A stretch of 38,582 bases of DNA from a virus. Below are positions 6,712 to 35,167 of this stretch, in pieces. The position numbers and the translations under genes were made by a program. How positions within the stretch are numbered: the first letter of the stretch is position 1; every line of letters begins with the position of its first letter. A model generated the notes under the pieces. The model saw only the letters and a program-made list of their open reading frames with translations, was not told where the DNA came from and ran no database searches. The stretch spans positions 1-38,582 of the IMG/VR virus record IMGVR_UViG_3300010885_009426. The stretch is one strand, 5' to 3'.

Positions 6712-6740
6712 ACTATAGTACACATGTTGCAAAGTTGCAA
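6712..6740 (-). promoter_or_regulatory. predicted early promoter with a duplicated TTGCAA site
   Basis: A TTGCAA -35 box (6740-6735), an exactly 17-base spacer and a TATAGT -10 box (6717-6712) on the minus strand. A second TTGCAA lies inside the spacer (6732-6727), so the region reads TTGCAACTTTGCAA, an inverted repeat that could be an operator. It lies upstream of the HTH gene and the whole early operon. The rest of the gap 6636-6914 holds the leader hairpin and the TTGCCAC repeats listed separately. Confidence 0.65.
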
Positions 6741-6831
6741 GCATTACGCTACTGTGTGAACACAATTTATTAGGCGCATGGTTGTGCCCTTGTCGCAAAG
6801 GGTGGGACGTAAACAGGGGAACCTGGGTCGA

Positions 6832-6893
6832 TTGCCACGTCATGTGGCAAGGCGCTGTGATTGAAATAGGGAGTCGGACTGTGGCAACCCGAC
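6832..6893. repeat. TTGCCAC repeats and two hairpins after the lysis cassette
   Basis: TTGCCAC (6832-6838) pairs perfectly with GTGGCAA (6844-6850) around a 5-base loop. GTGGCAA recurs at 6881-6887 inside the loop of a second stem (GTCGG at 6873-6877, CCGAC at 6889-6893). These lie just after the stop of the last late gene and before the early promoter. They may end the late transcript, though no U-run follows, or be a protein-binding site. Confidence 0.45.
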
Positions 6894-6914
6894 GGGGGGC
6901 ACAGACAGGTCTAA

Positions 6915-8217: not shown

Positions 8218-9767
8218 TTACGTCTAATACTACTAGATGACATTCCTACCAATAAAGCGCCAGCAGCTACAAGGGTTCGACGTGTTTTTACAGGGATGTT
8301 AGAACCCGTTGGTACGTAGTCCTCAAACTGGGAGCCAAAGATATCAATGGTTTTCTCAAACGCCTTCTTAATTTTAGTAGGGGCTTCTTGAATAGCAGCA
8401 GTAAATTCTTCCAACTGTTCCTCAGTTAGTTCCTCTACGTCAATCTGCTCAAACAACTCTTCGGCCTGATCCTCAGTAATAGCAGCCAACACCTCAGGAC
8501 TTGAAGCAATCTCGGTGGCTTGATCCGAAGTAATCTCCGCAGCCAACAGTTGGGCGACAGCAGCAACAATCTGTTCAGGTTCAGCCTCGGTAAGGTCCTC
8601 TAAGATTTCTCCTACTTGCTCATCAGTAACTGGCTCATCAGCTGGGACATCAGGTAAGGTGGTAGTTGATGACAACTCTGGTGATTCTTCTTCTATATCT
8701 TGTGTATATTCCTCTGGCGATTCTGTTGTTGTTGGGGCATCTGTTTCGTCAGGAGCAATCTCTTCAACGGAAGTATCTTCAGGATAAGTCTCTTCTGGAT
8801 AAGTCTCTTCTGGATAAGTCTCTTCTGGATAAGTCTCCTCAGGAGTAGAAGTAGTTGTTTCTAGAGTATCTTCTGACACCTCTTCTTCTTCTTCAGGAAG
8901 GATCGTTACCGTGGGTTCTGGCACTTCTGTTGTCGTTGTGGTTGCCGTGGCTACTGGCAAAGATGTCGTAGTTGTCGTTGCAGGGACAGTCGTTTGAACT
9001 ACAGTAGTAGTACTTGTCGTCGTTGACTCCGTGGATGTTGTAGTTGGGGCCCATGATGTAGTGGTTGTCTCCTGAATTGTAGTAGTTGTAGTACTAGATG
9101 TAGTAGTAGACGAGGAGGAAGATGAAGACGAAGATGAAGATGTTGTTGTGGTCCCTGGCAGGGTTATTGTGGTTGTCGTCGATGATGTGGTTGTTGTGGT
9201 GGATGTTGTTGTCGTCGGTGAAGTCGTTGTTGTAAACGCAGAGTCGGGGATCATTTCCCAGCCTTGACCGTTGATGTTCCAGGCGAGCATTATGCAGGTG
9301 CCGCCACCGTTTTCGTACATCCATAGTTCTAAAGGTTGGCTGCCTGCGTTTAGTTGTAGTGGTCCTGATTCGGTTGCTGAACAACCCTGGTCATACCAGA
9401 CACCGAACGTGTTGCCGTCAATAGTTATCTCACCACCGTCATCTGATGCAAGCCAGAACTCAATCGTGTTGTGTTCAGGGATAGTAATGAACCCCGTCAT
9501 GTGCACCATAAACAAGTCACCTGTGCAATCCTCGTACGGTTCACCGTCATAGGAACGGTTGATGTTGTTCTCTGTTTCAGTACCGCAGACAGGGTATTCG
9601 GTGGTGGATTGGACTGGTGGTATTTCGTCGATTGTGTAGTAGGTGGTTGCTAACCCTGGTGTCGGTTCAGCGTTGGCGGTTTGTGGGAAAACTGTAAACA
9701 GGATTGCTGGTAGCGGTATAAGCCACCTTGTTAGATTGCGACCCACTCTAGTTCTTCTTCGTTCCAC
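8214..9767 (-). CDS. secreted PA14-like protein with mucin-like stalk
   Basis: A 517-residue protein with an N-terminal signal peptide (about 1-33, ending TANA). A PA14-like beta domain (about 34-178) shows FWLASDDGGEITIDG and FGVWYD. A long Thr/Ser-rich stalk follows (about 179-290), then an acidic part with four EETYP repeats (about 315-335), a helical segment, and a C-terminal hydrophobic stretch with a basic tail (TLVAAGALLVG then SIRRK). PA14 domains bind carbohydrate. The layout is that of a membrane- or wall-anchored surface protein, not a normal virion part. No LPxTG motif is evident. It starts at GTG, overlaps the hydroxylase gene, and leads into the lysis cassette. Confidence 0.8.
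   Translation of the reverse strand: MERRRTRVGRNLTRWLIPLPAILFTVFPQTANAEPTPGLATTYYTIDEIPPVQSTTEYPVCGTETENNINRSYDGEPYEDCTGDLFMVHMTGFITIPEHNTIEFWLASDDGGEITIDGNTFGVWYDQGCSATESGPLQLNAGSQPLELWMYENGGGTCIMLAWNINGQGWEMIPDSAFTTTTSPTTTTSTTTTTSSTTTTITLPGTTTTSSSSSSSSSSSTTTSSTTTTTIQETTTTSWAPTTTSTESTTTSTTTVVQTTVPATTTTTSLPVATATTTTTEVPEPTVTILPEEEEEVSEDTLETTTSTPEETYPEETYPEETYPEETYPEDTSVEEIAPDETDAPTTTESPEEYTQDIEEESPELSSTTTLPDVPADEPVTDEQVGEILEDLTEAEPEQIVAAVAQLLAAEITSDQATEIASSPEVLAAITEDQAEELFEQIDVEELTEEQLEEFTAAIQEAPTKIKKAFEKTIDIFGSQFEDYVPTGSNIPVKTRRTLVAAGALLVGMSSSSIRRK
8776..8835 (-). repeat. four 15-bp tandem repeats inside the PA14 gene
   Basis: Four adjacent copies of a 15-base unit (TCTTCTGGATAAGTC on the plus strand, the first with one change) encode the EETYP peptide repeat. 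The near-identity at DNA level points to recent expansion by slippage. Copy number may vary between strains. Confidence 0.9.
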
Positions 9768-10341
9768 AAACCAAATTTTTACCTACAAAATCATTTGGCA
9801 AAATATCAACTATTACATGGACTCTATCTTCATTGCTTAAATTTTCTACTTTATGTAATTTAGTATTATCAATCTCCCAAATTTCTCCTGTTTTTAAGTT
9901 TTTCTTTTCTCCGTCAACATAGAACCAAACTTCATCATTTGTAACAATGGGGATATGATGTCTTTTAATTGTATTTAAATACAATCCATTATCGGAATGC
10001 TCATTAATTTTTTTTCCAGCAGCCAACTTCACAAGCATAGTTTTAGCAAGTTCTCCATTATGTAAGTTTTTTAAATAGTTTAAAATAGGCTTTAATAAGT
10101 TGACTAATTCATTATTTTCTAATGTAAAGCTATATTTGCATTTTACAAATTTGTTTGTTTTTAGGCTTTTTTCTTCCCAAGATTTAGCATCAAAATCAGT
10201 TATCTGTACGGTATGCGTATGTCTATGTATAAAGAAAGTATCTTGCCTAAAAGTGTAACTAAGCCATTCCTGGTTAAAGTTGTTTATTACCTTAGCAATT
10301 TCTGAAACATCTTCTGTTTTGTGTAAAACAAAAGCTGTCAC
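9748..10341 (-). CDS. Asp/Asn beta-hydroxylase-like dioxygenase
   Basis: A 197-residue protein with the double-stranded beta-helix signature of 2-oxoglutarate/Fe(II) enzymes of the aspartyl/asparaginyl hydroxylase type. H115-x-D117 (INEHSDNG) and H163 (KLHKVEN) supply iron ligands, R173 (EDRVHVIVD) could bind 2-oxoglutarate, and RHHIPIVTND is the conserved strand between. Such enzymes hydroxylate protein side chains or small molecules. The gene is markedly AT-rich, suggesting separate origin. It starts at a GTG overlapping the previous stop (TAGTG). The target is unknown; a tail fibre or host surface product is a guess. Confidence 0.8.
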   Translation of the reverse strand: MTAFVLHKTEDVSEIAKVINNFNQEWLSYTFRQDTFFIHRHTHTVQITDFDAKSWEEKSLKTNKFVKCKYSFTLENNELVNLLKPILNYLKNLHNGELAKTMLVKLAAGKKINEHSDNGLYLNTIKRHHIPIVTNDEVWFYVDGEKKNLKTGEIWEIDNTKLHKVENLSNEDRVHVIVDILPNDFVGKNLVCGTKKN

Positions 10342-10706
10342 TAATCAGCCGAAACCCAAACTTGAGTTGGTTCATCCCAATAATAACGAATAGTATTTGA
10401 GGCATCAGAAGGCCTTGGTGTTGGTGGTTTCCAATTGTAATCGCTGTCAAGATTCCATGAGGCAAATGGTTGAGGCAAAATGAATACGTCCGCTTCAGGA
10501 TTGTAGGTCATCCCAATAGTCCCAAAGTGTTTACGAAAATTATGATTGTAGCTTGTTTGTTTCCATTCGCCGTCAAGACCTAGTGTACTGATAATAAAAT
10601 TTTGACCAATAGGTTCACTTTCTGGAAAGACGTCACCACAAACATCATTACTAATTACGATTACATTTGTAACAAGGTTACTTTCAACCTTAGCAAAGTG
10701 AGCCAT
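10341..10706 (-). CDS. conserved phage protein (MAHFAK type)
   Basis: A 121-residue protein from the ATG at 10706, which has a GGAG site 5 bases upstream; the longer frame to 10742 would overlap the sulfotransferase more. It begins MAHFAKVESNLVTNVIVISN and continues with FPESEPIGQNFI and LGLDGEWKQTSYN. This kind of protein recurs in aquatic phages near tail fibres and has no assigned function. It is sandwiched between a sulfotransferase and a dioxygenase gene, so it may be a substrate or fibre-associated protein (inference). Confidence 0.75.
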   Translation of the reverse strand: MAHFAKVESNLVTNVIVISNDVCGDVFPESEPIGQNFIISTLGLDGEWKQTSYNHNFRKHFGTIGMTYNPEADVFILPQPFASWNLDSDYNWKPPTPRPSDASNTIRYYWDEPTQVWVSAD

Positions 10707-11445
10707 ACAAACTCCATTCATCCAGACGATTACATTTGTCAATCAATTCATCAGATAATTCAACATCAACTGTGCGCCGACTAATTTGTGGGCGAACATC
10801 GTGTTGACCGATAAGGCCATATACAGCGTCGTTTTCTTTATGGTGATTTATGATGTTATCAAGGTTGTGCACAAAAGGTTCCCAACCACAATGCTCGTAA
10901 ATACGGTCAAGAGTCACTTGTGTGTTATCAACAAGCTCATCATAAGTGACAAAAATAAACTCACCATTGTTATTTTTTCTTGCCCATTCAACACCAGCAA
11001 GTGAACGCATAATTGGTTCACTACCGTCTTCAAGCAGTATCTCCATGTCTGCCCAACCATTTGCTTTGCGTAAAGCTAAAAATGAAGCAACAACTTCAAC
11101 AAGTGGTCTAACAAGCACAATAATTTTTGGTGCGTTATTAAAGTAACGGTTTAAGATTTCAACATTGGCTGGTAATGTCCACGAACGGCATTTGTCAACG
11201 ACAATCGATTTTGCTACATCGGCATAGTAGGTGTGCGGTATTGGTTTAACTAGGGCGTCAAGAATATCTTTATTAGTTGCTTTAAGTTGTTCAGAGTTAA
11301 CAACTGACTGTTGCATATCCCACATCAATTGACAAACGGCTGAATTACCTTCAGCATGTATTTCAGGATTTTGTGACAAGATAGCCGACAATAAAGTTGA
11401 TCCTGTGCGCGGTAATCCACTAAGTGCTACGAATTGTTTTATCAT
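10690..11445 (-). CDS. sulfotransferase
   Basis: A 251-residue PAPS-dependent sulfotransferase. The 5'-phosphosulfate loop is GLPRTGSTLLS (from residue 10), and the 3'-phosphate-binding strand-helix is KIIVLVRPLVEVVASFL. A later ITYDELV-like stretch (FVTYDELVDN) also fits the family. It would move sulfate onto a sugar or tyrosine. I start at the ATG at 11445 because it overlaps the fibre gene's stop as ATGA. The position between a glycine-rich fibre and a dioxygenase suggests modification of a fibre or of host surface glycans, but this is inferred. Confidence 0.88.
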   Translation of the reverse strand: MIKQFVALSGLPRTGSTLLSAILSQNPEIHAEGNSAVCQLMWDMQQSVVNSEQLKATNKDILDALVKPIPHTYYADVAKSIVVDKCRSWTLPANVEILNRYFNNAPKIIVLVRPLVEVVASFLALRKANGWADMEILLEDGSEPIMRSLAGVEWARKNNNGEFIFVTYDELVDNTQVTLDRIYEHCGWEPFVHNLDNIINHHKENDAVYGLIGQHDVRPQISRRTVDVELSDELIDKCNRLDEWSLYGSLC

Positions 11446-12302
11446 GCCCACGTAGCTGTACCAGAACCAGTAAATTTATAAACAGTATAACCATTAGCAG
11501 TTGTAATAGTAGGTGATCCAGTTGTTGATGTAGCTTCATTGCCAGCAACTACTCTAACAACTACTATTCCAGAACCTCCGCCAGCACCTCCATACCAGGC
11601 TTGGTTGTAACCATCTCTGCCGCCACCGCCACCGCCACCGCCTGTGTTTGCGCTACCACCACCTGGGGCACCGCCACCACCAGAACCACCGCCATCAACA
11701 CCGCCAGATGGGCCAGCGTTATATTTACCTCCGCCACCTCCACCGCCATAACCAACAGTGCTACCAGTAATACTTGTTTGTACTCCAGATTGTCCAGTAC
11801 GAGCGCCACCGCCTTGTCCGCCTTCGTAGCCACCGCCACCGCCACCACCAGCGCCTCCACCACCAGAACCGTTGCCAGCAGCGCCAACACCACCACCTGT
11901 ACTTCCGCCTCCACCAGCGGTACATGTTTTTGTAACAGCACCATCACCATCAGCAACTACAAGACTACTTGTACCACCACCGCCAGCAACTGTTGCAGTT
12001 AAAACTCTTGGCGGAGTGAATGTGATTTGACTTTCCACAGAACCGTTACCACCAGTTTGGCTCAAGGTGCTACGCACTCCTCCGCCTCCACCACCAGCAC
12101 CCTGCTTAAGGTTCCACATTCCTGCACCACCACCAGAACCACCGCCTGCTACAACAAGGAAATCAAAAATTATTGGCGATGCACCACCACCACGTCGCAA
12201 ACTGTCAACTTGGAGTGTTGAGTTCGCATGTTTTTTGCGTGGGGACAACGCCCCACCACCAACAGCTTTGCCACCTGTTGTGTTTCTAAAACTTCTAGGC
12301 AT
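11442..12302 (-). CDS. polyglycine-rich tail fibre/adhesin
   Basis: A 286-residue protein with long glycine runs. FDFLVVAGGGSGGGAG opens the repeat region, and SGIVVVRVV then YTVYKFTGSGTATWA close it. Glycine-rich fibre tips of this type can fold as packed polyglycine-II helices with variable loops that bind the receptor. This is established for the tip adhesin of some T-even-like phages. The gene lies at the end of the tail module, where receptor-binding proteins usually lie. The role as receptor binder is likely but not shown by the sequence alone. Confidence 0.75.
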   Translation of the reverse strand: MPRSFRNTTGGKAVGGGALSPRKKHANSTLQVDSLRRGGGASPIIFDFLVVAGGGSGGGAGMWNLKQGAGGGGGGVRSTLSQTGGNGSVESQITFTPPRVLTATVAGGGGTSSLVVADGDGAVTKTCTAGGGGSTGGGVGAAGNGSGGGGAGGGGGGGYEGGQGGGARTGQSGVQTSITGSTVGYGGGGGGGKYNAGPSGGVDGGGSGGGGAPGGGSANTGGGGGGGGRDGYNQAWYGGAGGGSGIVVVRVVAGNEATSTTGSPTITTANGYTVYKFTGSGTATWA

Positions 12303-32249: not shown

Positions 32250-34199
32250 CTATATCCAAGAAGGACGCCACATCTTTGGTGGAGCATGAAGTGGGCGAAG
32301 TTGGGGCATGTGTAGTTCAGCAAACCAATGTGCCATTACCAAGTCGGTGCCGTTCTTTTTATCTCTAGTCCAAGAAGTCATCTCGTCTACAAATGCCATA
32401 GTCTTCCAATTAGCACGCATAGTTGGGATTCGTACCTGCCCTGATCTCCACAGAGGTGGCAGCAAAGCTTCAACACCAAGGTTCTCGTCAAACTTGTTGC
32501 GGGCTGTTGTGTGTGGCACAACGTTGATCCCATGCAATGCTTGCCATTTGCGAACGAAGTCGTGCGCCAAAAGAAACCGTTGCGCTGCGTTGATTTCTAC
32601 GATCCAATGGGAGATCGGATAGCCGTAAGCCATTGAACGGTTCTGCCATTCCTCCATGATTCCACCGAACTCACGGGTCTGCGTGTTGTAGCCCAGTAGA
32701 TCTTCGGCGGTTAGCTTAACTCGTTCAACATCAATCAAGTATCTAAGGTTGGTTGACGGTTGATATAGCCACCATTGCAAAGCCCAGAACATGGTTGGTG
32801 ATGGGTCAACTGATGCAATAGAAATAACTGGCGGGACCAAACCTTCAGGAACATATCCTGCTTGTCGGTCATTGTCGATGCAACCTGGATACAGTACACC
32901 ATCTGGACCCAGACCACCAGTTGCCCACGTGCGATTAATTAAGTAGTTATCTTCCGCCATATCCTTTTGTTGATATACAACTTCAAACTTTGATGGCGAA
33001 CTGTGTCGAACATAAGAAAGATCTTTCCATGAAAGACGAAATGGTTCCAGCAACGGACCAACAGGCCATGCAGGTGCGTCTTGTCTACGAGACTTAGGAC
33101 CATCATCTAGTTCTTCATAGTAAGCCTTGTAGATTAAGTGATGATACTTATAGGTTTTAACTGGTTCTACTTCTTCGGATACATCAGTTACATCTGATCC
33201 GTCATAGTCGTCTGCGTCGTAAGCAACCTTACCAAGACAATGCGCGTATAGGTCAAGTGGTCCAAGACGTTGACCGATAACGGCAAGCATGCCACCTGGA
33301 TCAACACGGGCTTCTGCCATTGAGTCCCAACGTTCAATGAGTTTGTCACGAGCAACAGATTCTTTAGCGTTCTCTGGTGATGCCACGTCGTCAAACAAAC
33401 AAAGGTCGGCACGGTGTCCAATGAACTCTGATTCGATACCATATGCGCTTACTGTTGGTTCTTTGTTGTCTAAACCACCAGCTCCTTGTTGTTCTACTAC
33501 AAATTCTTCTGCGCGCCACAGAGCACCAACATGGTTGGGTCTGAAACGCCCATAGTCCAAAGACAAGCAACCTTCTGCGTTGATAGCTAATCCTTTGGCA
33601 ACCATCTCTGGGTCAGGAATAAGTGGGGATGTGCGCTCTAAGGTTTCACGGATACGGCGTGAATACATCTTTGCAAGCGTTTGCGAGATGGATCCGATCA
33701 TCACACGGATTGCTCGGTTGCGTACGATACACCAAACAGCCACGTCGTGGAATAGGGTTGATTTACCTACACCTGGTGGGCAGTTAAGAACCATGAACTG
33801 TTTGTCTGGATGTTCAAGCATTTCAACAATCTTGTATGCAGCATCTACTTGCCATGGTGACGGGACGCGACCCAGATAGACGGTACGGAAATAATCAAAG
33901 TCTTCTAGCCCACGTTGCGCTCTTTCGGACAACCTGCCAGCTGGAATGACGGGTGGCATGTTGACCATCTCCAGTCTGTCCTTTTCAACGGATCCTCTGC
34001 CACCACCTGGCTTAGCTAACTTGACTTGCTCCAACTCAAGTTTGGCTTCTGTTTCTTTTGCTTTAGATCGCCACTTGACAGCCGTGTTGTAGCAAACACC
34101 AGAGATACGTGCAGCTTCTTTTGTGGATACGCCAGATTGTAGGGCTTGCCAGAATAGGGCTCGGTCTTCAGCCGAGATCGCCCTTCTACCTTGGGACAT
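32250..34199 (-). CDS. terL: terminase large subunit with N-terminal HTH
   Basis: A 649-residue packaging motor. An N-terminal helix-turn-helix (about 9-48, VSTKEAARISGVCYNTAVKW) is fused to the ATPase. The Walker A is NCPPGVGKST, the Walker B is LCLFDDVAS, and the nuclease residues follow in SVDPSP and VEINAAQ. It cuts concatemeric DNA and drives it into the head using ATP. The fused HTH may do the DNA recognition usually carried by a small subunit. The start overlaps the previous stop (TAATG) after an AAGAAAAAGAAG stretch. Confidence 0.92.
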   Translation of the reverse strand: MSQGRRAISAEDRALFWQALQSGVSTKEAARISGVCYNTAVKWRSKAKETEAKLELEQVKLAKPGGGRGSVEKDRLEMVNMPPVIPAGRLSERAQRGLEDFDYFRTVYLGRVPSPWQVDAAYKIVEMLEHPDKQFMVLNCPPGVGKSTLFHDVAVWCIVRNRAIRVMIGSISQTLAKMYSRRIRETLERTSPLIPDPEMVAKGLAINAEGCLSLDYGRFRPNHVGALWRAEEFVVEQQGAGGLDNKEPTVSAYGIESEFIGHRADLCLFDDVASPENAKESVARDKLIERWDSMAEARVDPGGMLAVIGQRLGPLDLYAHCLGKVAYDADDYDGSDVTDVSEEVEPVKTYKYHHLIYKAYYEELDDGPKSRRQDAPAWPVGPLLEPFRLSWKDLSYVRHSSPSKFEVVYQQKDMAEDNYLINRTWATGGLGPDGVLYPGCIDNDRQAGYVPEGLVPPVISIASVDPSPTMFWALQWWLYQPSTNLRYLIDVERVKLTAEDLLGYNTQTREFGGIMEEWQNRSMAYGYPISHWIVEINAAQRFLLAHDFVRKWQALHGINVVPHTTARNKFDENLGVEALLPPLWRSGQVRIPTMRANWKTMAFVDEMTSWTRDKKNGTDLVMAHWFAELHMPQLRPLHAPPKMWRPSWI

Positions 34200-34489
34200 T
34201 ACTTCTTTTTCTTTTTACCAGTCACCTTTACTGATTCAGGTTTGGTCAAAGCATTGCGCTGCTCATACAAGAACTTGGCATTTTCTGCAAGACGCTTTTC
34301 TACCTGTGGTTCAAAAGAAGTATACGGATCAAATGATGCACGCATGTTCATAGCTTTCACTTGTTCTTCCATCACGTACTTGATTCCTTCCACGGTCTTG
34401 CGTCGAGCGTCAGCATTGAGGGCTTCAGTTTCGCTTTCCTTGTATTCAGCAAGAGAGCCATAAAAATTTTTATTTTTTGGTTTCATCAT
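34199..34489 (-). CDS. small Lys-tailed protein in the terminase small-subunit position
   Basis: A 96-residue protein from the ATG at 34489 (an ATG one codon later is equally possible). It is helical and charged (DARRKTVEGIKYVMEEQVKA, VEKRLAENAKFLYEQRNAL) and ends GKKKKK. Position directly before terL suggests a terminase small subunit, but the HTH sits in TerL instead. A TATAGT box ends 7 bases before the ATG, so the mRNA may have no leader. A longer frame to 34531 would cross that box. Role tentative. Confidence 0.6.
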   Translation of the reverse strand: MMKPKNKNFYGSLAEYKESETEALNADARRKTVEGIKYVMEEQVKAMNMRASFDPYTSFEPQVEKRLAENAKFLYEQRNALTKPESVKVTGKKKKK

Positions 34490-34490
34490 G

Positions 34491-34519
34491 TTGTCAACTA
34501 TACACCATGGTGCTAGAGT
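34491..34519. promoter_or_regulatory. divergent promoter pair around a CACCATGGTG palindrome
   Basis: Minus strand: TATAGT (34502-34497) with a weak CTGCCA -35 16 bases upstream, placing the start at or next to the ATG at 34489 (leaderless). Plus strand: TTGTCA (34491-34496), 17-base spacer, extended -10 TGC-TAGAGT (34514-34519), start near 34526. Between the two -10 boxes lies the perfect palindrome CACCATGGTG (34503-34512), a good site for one regulator controlling both directions. Prediction by eye. Confidence 0.45.
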
Positions 34520-34903
34520 GGCAGGACTCACAACCGACTAAACGCACGGGCCGTACTCTATTCGCACAGAGCGGGGCATTGAACACCAGGTAACTGGGGT
34601 AGATCTCCCATGACTGGGAGAAGCGACGTGATGAACGATACATCATCAACTAAGGTGTCGGCTAAATAGCTTGGCTACGGCGACCTGCTCCATAAAGGAT
34701 GCGAACCGTGGGGGGAGCTGACAGCTCTAAGTTGATTCGTAGCGGTTAACCAGCGTATGTGTACGGTATACACACAAACTAGCGCCGTTCACCACAGAAA
34801 ATGTAACAAATCCACACATATACAGGACGGGTATTACCCCCCCTGGGGGGTAGGGTAGGCTCGGCAAACCCCTAGTTGTCTAGAGGCTTACCGAGCCTAG
34901 AGC
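34520..34903 (+). ncRNA. candidate structured RNA or packaging/regulatory region, no gene
   Basis: No convincing reading frame on either strand. The block has several inverted repeats: CCAG-GTAA-CTGG (34586-34597, a GNRA-type loop if read on the plus strand), TCTCCCA-TGAC-TGGGAGA (34604-34621), GAGCT-GAC-AGCTC (34715-34727), TGTGTA-5-TACACA (34758-34774), a C7/G6 palindrome (34836-34851) and the long stem at 34856-34899. A plus-strand promoter-like sequence precedes it. It could instead be a cos/pac site next to terminase. Only small frames (19 and 16 codons) are seen on the plus strand. Confidence 0.35.
34856..34899. other. long hairpin between the ATT-start frame and the structured block
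   Basis: Outer arms TAGGCTCGG (34856-34864) and CCGAGCCTA (34891-34899) pair over 9 bases. Inner CTAG arms (34872-34875, 34880-34883) enclose TTGT, and the middle pairs partially. It starts 4 bases after the stop of the frame 34904-35149. It may stop that transcript, although no U-run follows, or form part of the structured block. Confidence 0.6.
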
Positions 34904-35149
34904 CTAAGCCTTGTTGGCTAGAGCGTAGAGCGTATATCCATTAGTCTCTACAGTCTTTGAGACTGCTTTGACCTTTACGCCTAGAGCCACTAGGGACTCT
35001 TGGCCTTTCCAATTCATTACCCTGACTATTTCATTCTTCTTGATTGTGCCCTGACCGTCCCAGACTTTAATTCCATAGACGGCGTTCTTATCTTTCTTAG
35101 AGCCTGAGACTATGCCCCAAGACCCTAATTTATATTGGTTAGTAGTAAT
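34904..35149 (-). CDS. 81-residue protein with a probable ATT start codon
   Basis: An open frame of 81 codons with no ATG, GTG or TTG near its 5' end. ATT at 35149 sits 6 bases after a strong AAGGGAG site, and an in-frame stop lies just upstream. The product reads as a sensible small beta protein: TTNQYKLGSWGIVSGSKKD, then AVYGIKVWDGQGTIKKNEIV, RVMNWKGQESLVALGVKVKA and ETNGYTLYALANKA. A later internal ATG (codon 45) would leave only 37 residues. It follows the promoter at 35195 and its hairpin leader. Function unknown. A sequencing error in an ATG is possible. Confidence 0.55.
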   Translation of the reverse strand: MTTNQYKLGSWGIVSGSKKDKNAVYGIKVWDGQGTIKKNEIVRVMNWKGQESLVALGVKVKAVSKTVETNGYTLYALANKA

Positions 35150-35167
35150 GACTATCTCCCTTGTTTA

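Follow-up and report, generated by a model that had tools for sequence, protein, structure and literature searches.

A candidate structured RNA encoded opposite the terminase genes of phages that probably infect freshwater Actinobacteria

Next to the terminase genes of the viral DNA studied here lies a hairpin-rich block, and the question is what it encodes if it does not encode a protein. To our knowledge, structured phage RNAs are few and mostly unexplained. The first-pass annotation had proposed either a structured noncoding RNA on the plus strand or a cos/pac site. We have compared the block with homologous loci in other viral contigs, and the comparison indicates that it very probably encodes a structured RNA read from the plus strand.

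The window, i.e., the whole stretch of DNA that was analyzed, is 38.6 kb long with a GC content of ~45%. All of its genes are on the minus strand, and the RNA would run against every one of them. The window encodes a WhiB protein (1831-2136), a large terminase (TerL) of phrog_38 and a portal of phrog_104. Genome size, GC content and whiB are alike in the Planktophila phages E7 and F5 (“Ca. Nanopelagicales”; ~39 kb, 44.7-44.8% GC), the main text of whose description does not mention such an RNA (PMC10202952). Based on this profile, and not on a sequence match, the window phage probably belongs to the “Ca. Nanopelagicales” phage family, and its host is probably a freshwater actinobacterium. The 38.6-kb window contains no tRNA gene, and Pfam or PHROGs scans of a subset of its proteins showed no guide-RNA nuclease partner. 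On the minus strand, 9748-11451 holds Asp/Asn beta-hydroxylase-like and sulfotransferase-like genes.

The elements of the block are as follows, “unstranded” being used where no strand is assigned.

34491-34519, plus strand: predicted promoter of the RNA, extended -10 type, with TTGTCA (34491-34496), a 17-nt spacer ending in TGC, and TAGAGT (34514-34519)
34497-34502, minus strand: -10 box TATAGT, followed 7 nt later by the ATG at 34489
34503-34512, unstranded: palindrome lying between the two promoters, CACCATGGTG, retained only among close relatives
34525-34717, plus strand: structured RNA core, ending in the invariant GUGGGGG(G)AG (covariation; CM match of 160.8 bits, matched part 34542-34717)
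34796-34838, unstranded: conserved 3′-flank block with the minus-strand reading GGTAATACCCGTCCTGTATATGTGTGGATTTGTTACATT, recurring in related loci by inspection only
34858-34897, unstranded: long hairpin of ~40 nt that folds between the convergent RNA and a minus-strand small gene

The plus-strand promoter-like sequence, the minus-strand TATAGT (34502-34497) that it overlaps and the palindrome around which they lie were all found as first described. The TATAGT box probably marks the leaderless start of the small gene on the terminase side, since a TANNNT box shortly before the first ATG was seen again when homologues were compared. As the ATG at 34489 is 7 nt after TATAGT, a spacing like that of leaderless genes in Actinobacteria, the nearest minus-strand gene need not extend into the block. 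At the far end of the block, a small minus-strand gene has its stop at 34904-34906, and the hairpin at 34858-34897 is a possible two-way terminator; no U-tailed terminator was found for the RNA. The conserved core excludes the block 3′ of 34720. The palindrome is missing in most homologues, and the shared regulator that had been proposed to act there is hence without comparative support. The small gene beyond the block (34904-35152, minus strand, ITTNQYKLGSWGIVSGSKKD...) seemingly starts with ATT after GGGAGA, its relatives having ATG or TTG at a similar place.

Homologues were collected in two ways. A TerL search gave 21 loci, and the block was carried by 20 of the 20 that reach upstream of TerL. 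DNA patterns taken from the invariant segments retrieved at least ~170 distinct viral contigs from IMG/VR. The RNA lies in the same place across related contigs, ahead of and opposite to the terminase genes, with TerL on the other strand 189-2870 nt away in 157/186 loci among the matches listed. Several of the remaining loci carry an unrelated TerL (phrog_979, Terminase_6C) with the RNA in the same position; the one followed furthest (L030) has a P22-like portal and a WhiB-domain protein. As judged from these sequences, the RNA occurs in two lineages of phages whose large terminases are unrelated. No credible match to the RNA came from cultured phages, plasmids or GTDB genomes, nor from Streptomyces phages with a distant TerL (L230, L231). 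The two matches in Hymenobacter (L198, L199) are apparently fortuitous, lying within coding sequence, and were rejected, together with two false matches (L144, L180).

The view that the block holds no convincing gene stood up to comparison. A frame that is open throughout is rare among the 78 homologous cores, whose lengths fall in all three phases, and frames are not kept across the set; a coding block was rejected on these grounds.

We have then analyzed covariation in a MAFFT alignment of 37 sequences that had not been fitted to the structure, scoring 35 pairs that included the pseudoknot and two single tertiary pairs. This gave 93.8% standard pairs, and 250 cells were compensatory, compared with 77.5 after shuffling and no more than 46 when the pairs were slid. 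Because kinship among the sequences can inflate the shuffle result, the slid and the tree-based controls weigh most. Our own test with a tree-based null (78 sequences) yielded 10 pairs at E≤0.05, of which 8 are in the proposed helices and the other two are linked to one of those 8. Single-sequence folding gave a weak signal, with z of about -2 on the plus strand. A minus-strand z of -5 applies to the whole block, in which the separate long hairpin at 34858-34897 is included; for the core alone the values were -1.85 (plus) and -2.39 (minus). It is the covariation over homologues that is decisive for a predicted structure beyond chance. Where at least five stems had been noticed at first, this analysis supports at least six helices and a pseudoknot within 34543-34717, besides the hairpin at 34858-34897. 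All of the following are on the plus strand.

34550-34577, plus strand: hairpin P6, 34556-34559 with 34568-34571, outer pairs 34550-34577 and 34551-34576, loop AUUCGCAC
34586-34597, plus strand: hairpin P5, CCAG-GUAA-CUGG, with a GNRA tetraloop (loop counts in 101 rows)
34604-34621, plus strand: hairpin P4, 34604-34610 with 34615-34621, 7/7 pairs covarying
34563-34625, plus strand: pseudoknot, P6 loop 34563-34565 (CGC) with 34623-34625 (GCG), partners changing between sides with 100% standard pairs
34630-34647, plus strand: hairpin P3, 34630-34634 with 34643-34647, 4/5 pairs changed on both sides
34653-34686, plus strand: helix P2, 34653-34656 with 34683-34686, around the invariant GUCGGCU...GGCUACGGC, the outer pair covarying and three invariant
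34682-34706, plus strand: hairpin P1 (~34687-34702) and a single covarying pair, 34682-34706

The fold thus described consists of a 5′ domain (three hairpins, one GNRA loop and a loop pseudoknot) followed by a 3′ domain that ends in the invariant G run. The tree-based test scored pairs of P6 highest; the pairs of this hairpin change on both sides, and its inner stem has 100% standard pairs. The pair 34682-34706 occurs as G-C, C-G or A-U, again with 100% standard pairs, and P4 has an insertion in one clade. The invariant segments are a GUAC/GCGGG internal loop, GUCGGCU, GGCUACGGC and GUGGGGG(G)AG. Two further pairings were tried and discarded, namely one between the G run and a C run further downstream, which is not conserved, and a long-range closing helix CACGG/CCGUG, which is inconsistent across homologues. 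Nine loci (L013, L082, L158, L160, L165, L168, L177, L183 and L186) have another 5′ domain, with CCG-GAAA-CGG on the plus strand and again a GNRA loop, and the RNA looks modular.

As the hairpins are readable on both strands, the strand was tested separately. Read on the plus strand, the P5 loop is of GNRA type in 100/101 rows (GGAA 55, GAAA 33, GUAA 8, GCAA 3, GGGA 1), the one other row having no letters there; the GTAA loop first noticed in the window is one such case. Folding energy was lower for the plus strand in 75/78 cores. Mismatches in copy 1, with one loop-closing pair left out, favored the plus strand by 33 to 10 (A-C on the minus strand, equal to G-U on the plus strand). The P4 loop-closing pair goes the other way and favors the minus strand (20 vs. 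2), and in the CM-fitted alignment alone the G-U and A-C counts were close to even (81 vs. 71). The plus-strand promoter, diverging from that on the terminase side as had been claimed, is conserved: among the matches listed, TTGNNN-N16-18-TANNNT precedes the RNA in 105/145 distinct loci, compared with 29 in shuffled sequences and 31 on the minus strand. A minus-strand RNA, which the sense of the genes and the minus-strand z of -5 would suggest, was rejected because of the GNRA loops, energies, mismatch type and promoters.

The same data bear on the possibility that the late mRNA of the minus strand has a structured leader here, for instance an antitermination element. In favor of this, the block precedes the late operon and is in line with it, and hairpins can be read on both strands, but GNRA loops occur only on the plus strand and that strand is the more stable one in nearly all cores. 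Moreover, no enrichment of minus-strand promoters was seen on the other side of the core (21/130 vs. 31), and two loci (L044, L150) have, by eye, an apparent plus-strand frame between the RNA and TerL. We consider a late-mRNA leader highly improbable. Covariation, GNRA loops, folding energy, mismatch type and promoter conservation together bear out the original suggestion of a structured noncoding RNA on the plus strand, about 200-370 bases long, whose start we place at ~34525, some 6 nt after the -10 box.

The block had been taken for the only plus-strand signal of the genome. This did not hold, because a paralogous copy occurs on the plus strand at 6761-6904, with a promoter of its own.

6727-6755, plus strand: predicted promoter of copy 2, TTGCAA-17-TACTGT (GTTGCAA box and TANNNT-type box in 10/10 aligned sequences)
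6761-6904, plus strand: copy 2 of the RNA (24 compensatory cells vs. 7.3 shuffled; 99% standard pairs)

Model R1 matched the paralogue at 6774-6873 (55.4 bits, E 2e-18), and the paralogue is also present in relatives. The 5′ domain of copy 1 (P6, P5 with its GNRA loop, P4 and the pseudoknot) is retained in copy 2, which has G-U pairs on the plus strand. The 3′ half differs, comprising a GUCGG/CCGAC hairpin with a CUGUG/CACAG pseudoknot and GGGGGG at 6894-6899. The two copies are ~10.8 kb apart and flank the late region, which runs from the terminase as far as the lysis genes (a VanY-domain protein and a weak match to holin), and each is back to back with the start of a minus-strand operon.

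This last arrangement would also be compatible with a regulator of nearby transcription, in which divergent transcription or RNA-polymerase binding times the operon behind the RNA, and so would the conservation of the promoter boxes around a spacer that varies. Divergent interference does not need a covarying fold, however, and no conserved palindrome or operator was found, which makes such a regulator rather improbable. A replication primer or R-loop RNA, its G run holding the template as in ColE1 RNA II, seems very unlikely: copy 1 ends in an invariant G run and copy 2 has a G run as well, but neither copy coincides with a GC-skew switch, no iterons or origin proteins are tied to the site, and two copies so far apart do not suit a primer.

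The location beside the terminase makes a packaging RNA the strongest rival, i.e., a plus-strand RNA that is part of the DNA-packaging motor, or a guide to it, as the pRNA of phi29. It would account for the distance of 0.2-2.9 kb from TerL in most loci (among the matches listed), for a place that is kept even when TerL belongs to another family, and for the interlocking hairpin-pseudoknot fold. The present RNA further resembles phi29 pRNA in being a phage noncoding RNA of comparable size near a genome end. Nevertheless, its core is common to phages with unrelated TerL and portal proteins, which an RNA fitted to the motor would not be expected to tolerate, and copy 2 is found at the opposite end of the late region. 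The terminase belongs to the ordinary large-subunit type (phrog_38) and is not phi29-like; phages like phi29 use a different packaging ATPase and replicate by protein priming. Crossing TerL and portal families and giving no Rfam match also set the RNA apart from pRNA, and we regard a packaging role as unlikely, while still giving it some weight.

Packaging at the level of DNA, with the inverted repeats of a cos or pac site recognized as such, has in its favor that the block adjoins the terminase and that, among the matches listed, 33/173 contigs end within 650 nt of the 3′ side of the RNA, compared with 5 on the other side. Many of these contigs, however, start within or close to poly-G runs or strong hairpins, which break assembly. 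Compensatory pairs of free choice, GNRA loops and a conserved promoter are features of RNA, and a second copy at the far end of the late region speaks against such a site as well. The cos/pac alternative raised at first is not supported as the main reading and appears extremely unlikely. The contig ends on this 3′ side concentrate 200-650 nt from the RNA, a G/C hairpin or a poly-G run being at hand in many cases, and a packaging site or genome end may lie in that flank.

The reading that we prefer is that of a phage structured noncoding RNA, made by the host RNA polymerase and acting in trans, and as a whole we hold it with moderate confidence. Its fold, strand, promoter, second copy and distribution are established by comparison among genomes. 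Host RNA polymerase would transcribe the RNA on the plus strand from the sigma70-type extended -10 promoter, which would stand back to back with that of the minus-strand terminase operon. During infection the RNA would then act as a folded molecule, its invariant segments probably binding a host or phage protein or RNA; for action in trans itself, we lean towards it.

No Rfam 15 covariance model matched the window region or eight loci on either strand at E≤5, and our literature search, of partial coverage, found no description of such an RNA; by these comparisons it matches no known RNA family. The nearest analogues, by behavior, would be the right-end RNAs of L5 and D29 and the GOLLD and ROOL RNAs. 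According to the sections of PMC5712189 concerned, the right-end noncoding RNA of the mycobacteriophages L5, D29 and StarStuff is abundant, stable and untranslated, with a strong promoter near the genome end; it arises from the early promoter Pleft as ~500 nt processed to 100-400, and the region is toxic to the host. Ours would likewise be an untranslated actinophage RNA, whereas those sections report no covarying fold for theirs (PMC5712189). Model R1 did not match the last 1.8 kb of D29 (47300-49127) at E≤10. GOLLD and ROOL, which occur in phages and prophages, are ornate structured RNAs that contain pseudoknots and are often near tRNA islands, GOLLD often being over 800 nt (PMC12286853). 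The present RNA shares with them structure and a pseudoknot, but is smaller, matches no family model (E≤5) and has no tRNA in the window.

It seems somewhat probable to us that this is a new class of phage noncoding RNA, common in uncultured phages of aquatic Actinobacteria, modular in that several 5′ and 3′ domains are combined, sometimes present in two copies and needed, through some partner, for the lytic cycle of these phages. Among the hosts of phages with a profile like that of the window are some of the most abundant bacteria of fresh water, and cultured representatives exist; provided that they carry the RNA, it would be open to direct testing. With a well-supported fold, strand, promoter and paralogue, and a place beside two unrelated terminases, the role of a structured phage RNA becomes a concrete question. 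The alignments suffice to rebuild a covariance model that finds the RNA in other genomes.

Some further observations concern the neighboring genes. The small genes between the RNA and TerL (34199-34489 in the window; L003-L022) differ greatly in length and C-terminus and have a common N-terminal motif, N(F/Y)YGSL(A/S)(E/D)(Y/F)K.S; two are in tandem in L003 and L004. By sequence they form a variable cassette with a common N-terminal tag. In L044 and L150, the apparent frame on the strand of the RNA (MGKQLGTSGRIMRRKELKPARP... in L044) overlaps the RNA promoter with its 3′ end, by eye. In its N-terminal part, TerL (32250-34199, minus strand) has a stretch resembling a helix-turn-helix (ISAEDRALFWQALQSGVSTKEAARISGVCYNTAVKWRSK), most of which the phrog_38 match does not cover; it is perhaps a fused small-terminase function. 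Finally, a short relative of the RNA (L046, locus coordinates 2874-2972) is near SSB and Rv2179c-like exoribonuclease genes instead of a terminase.
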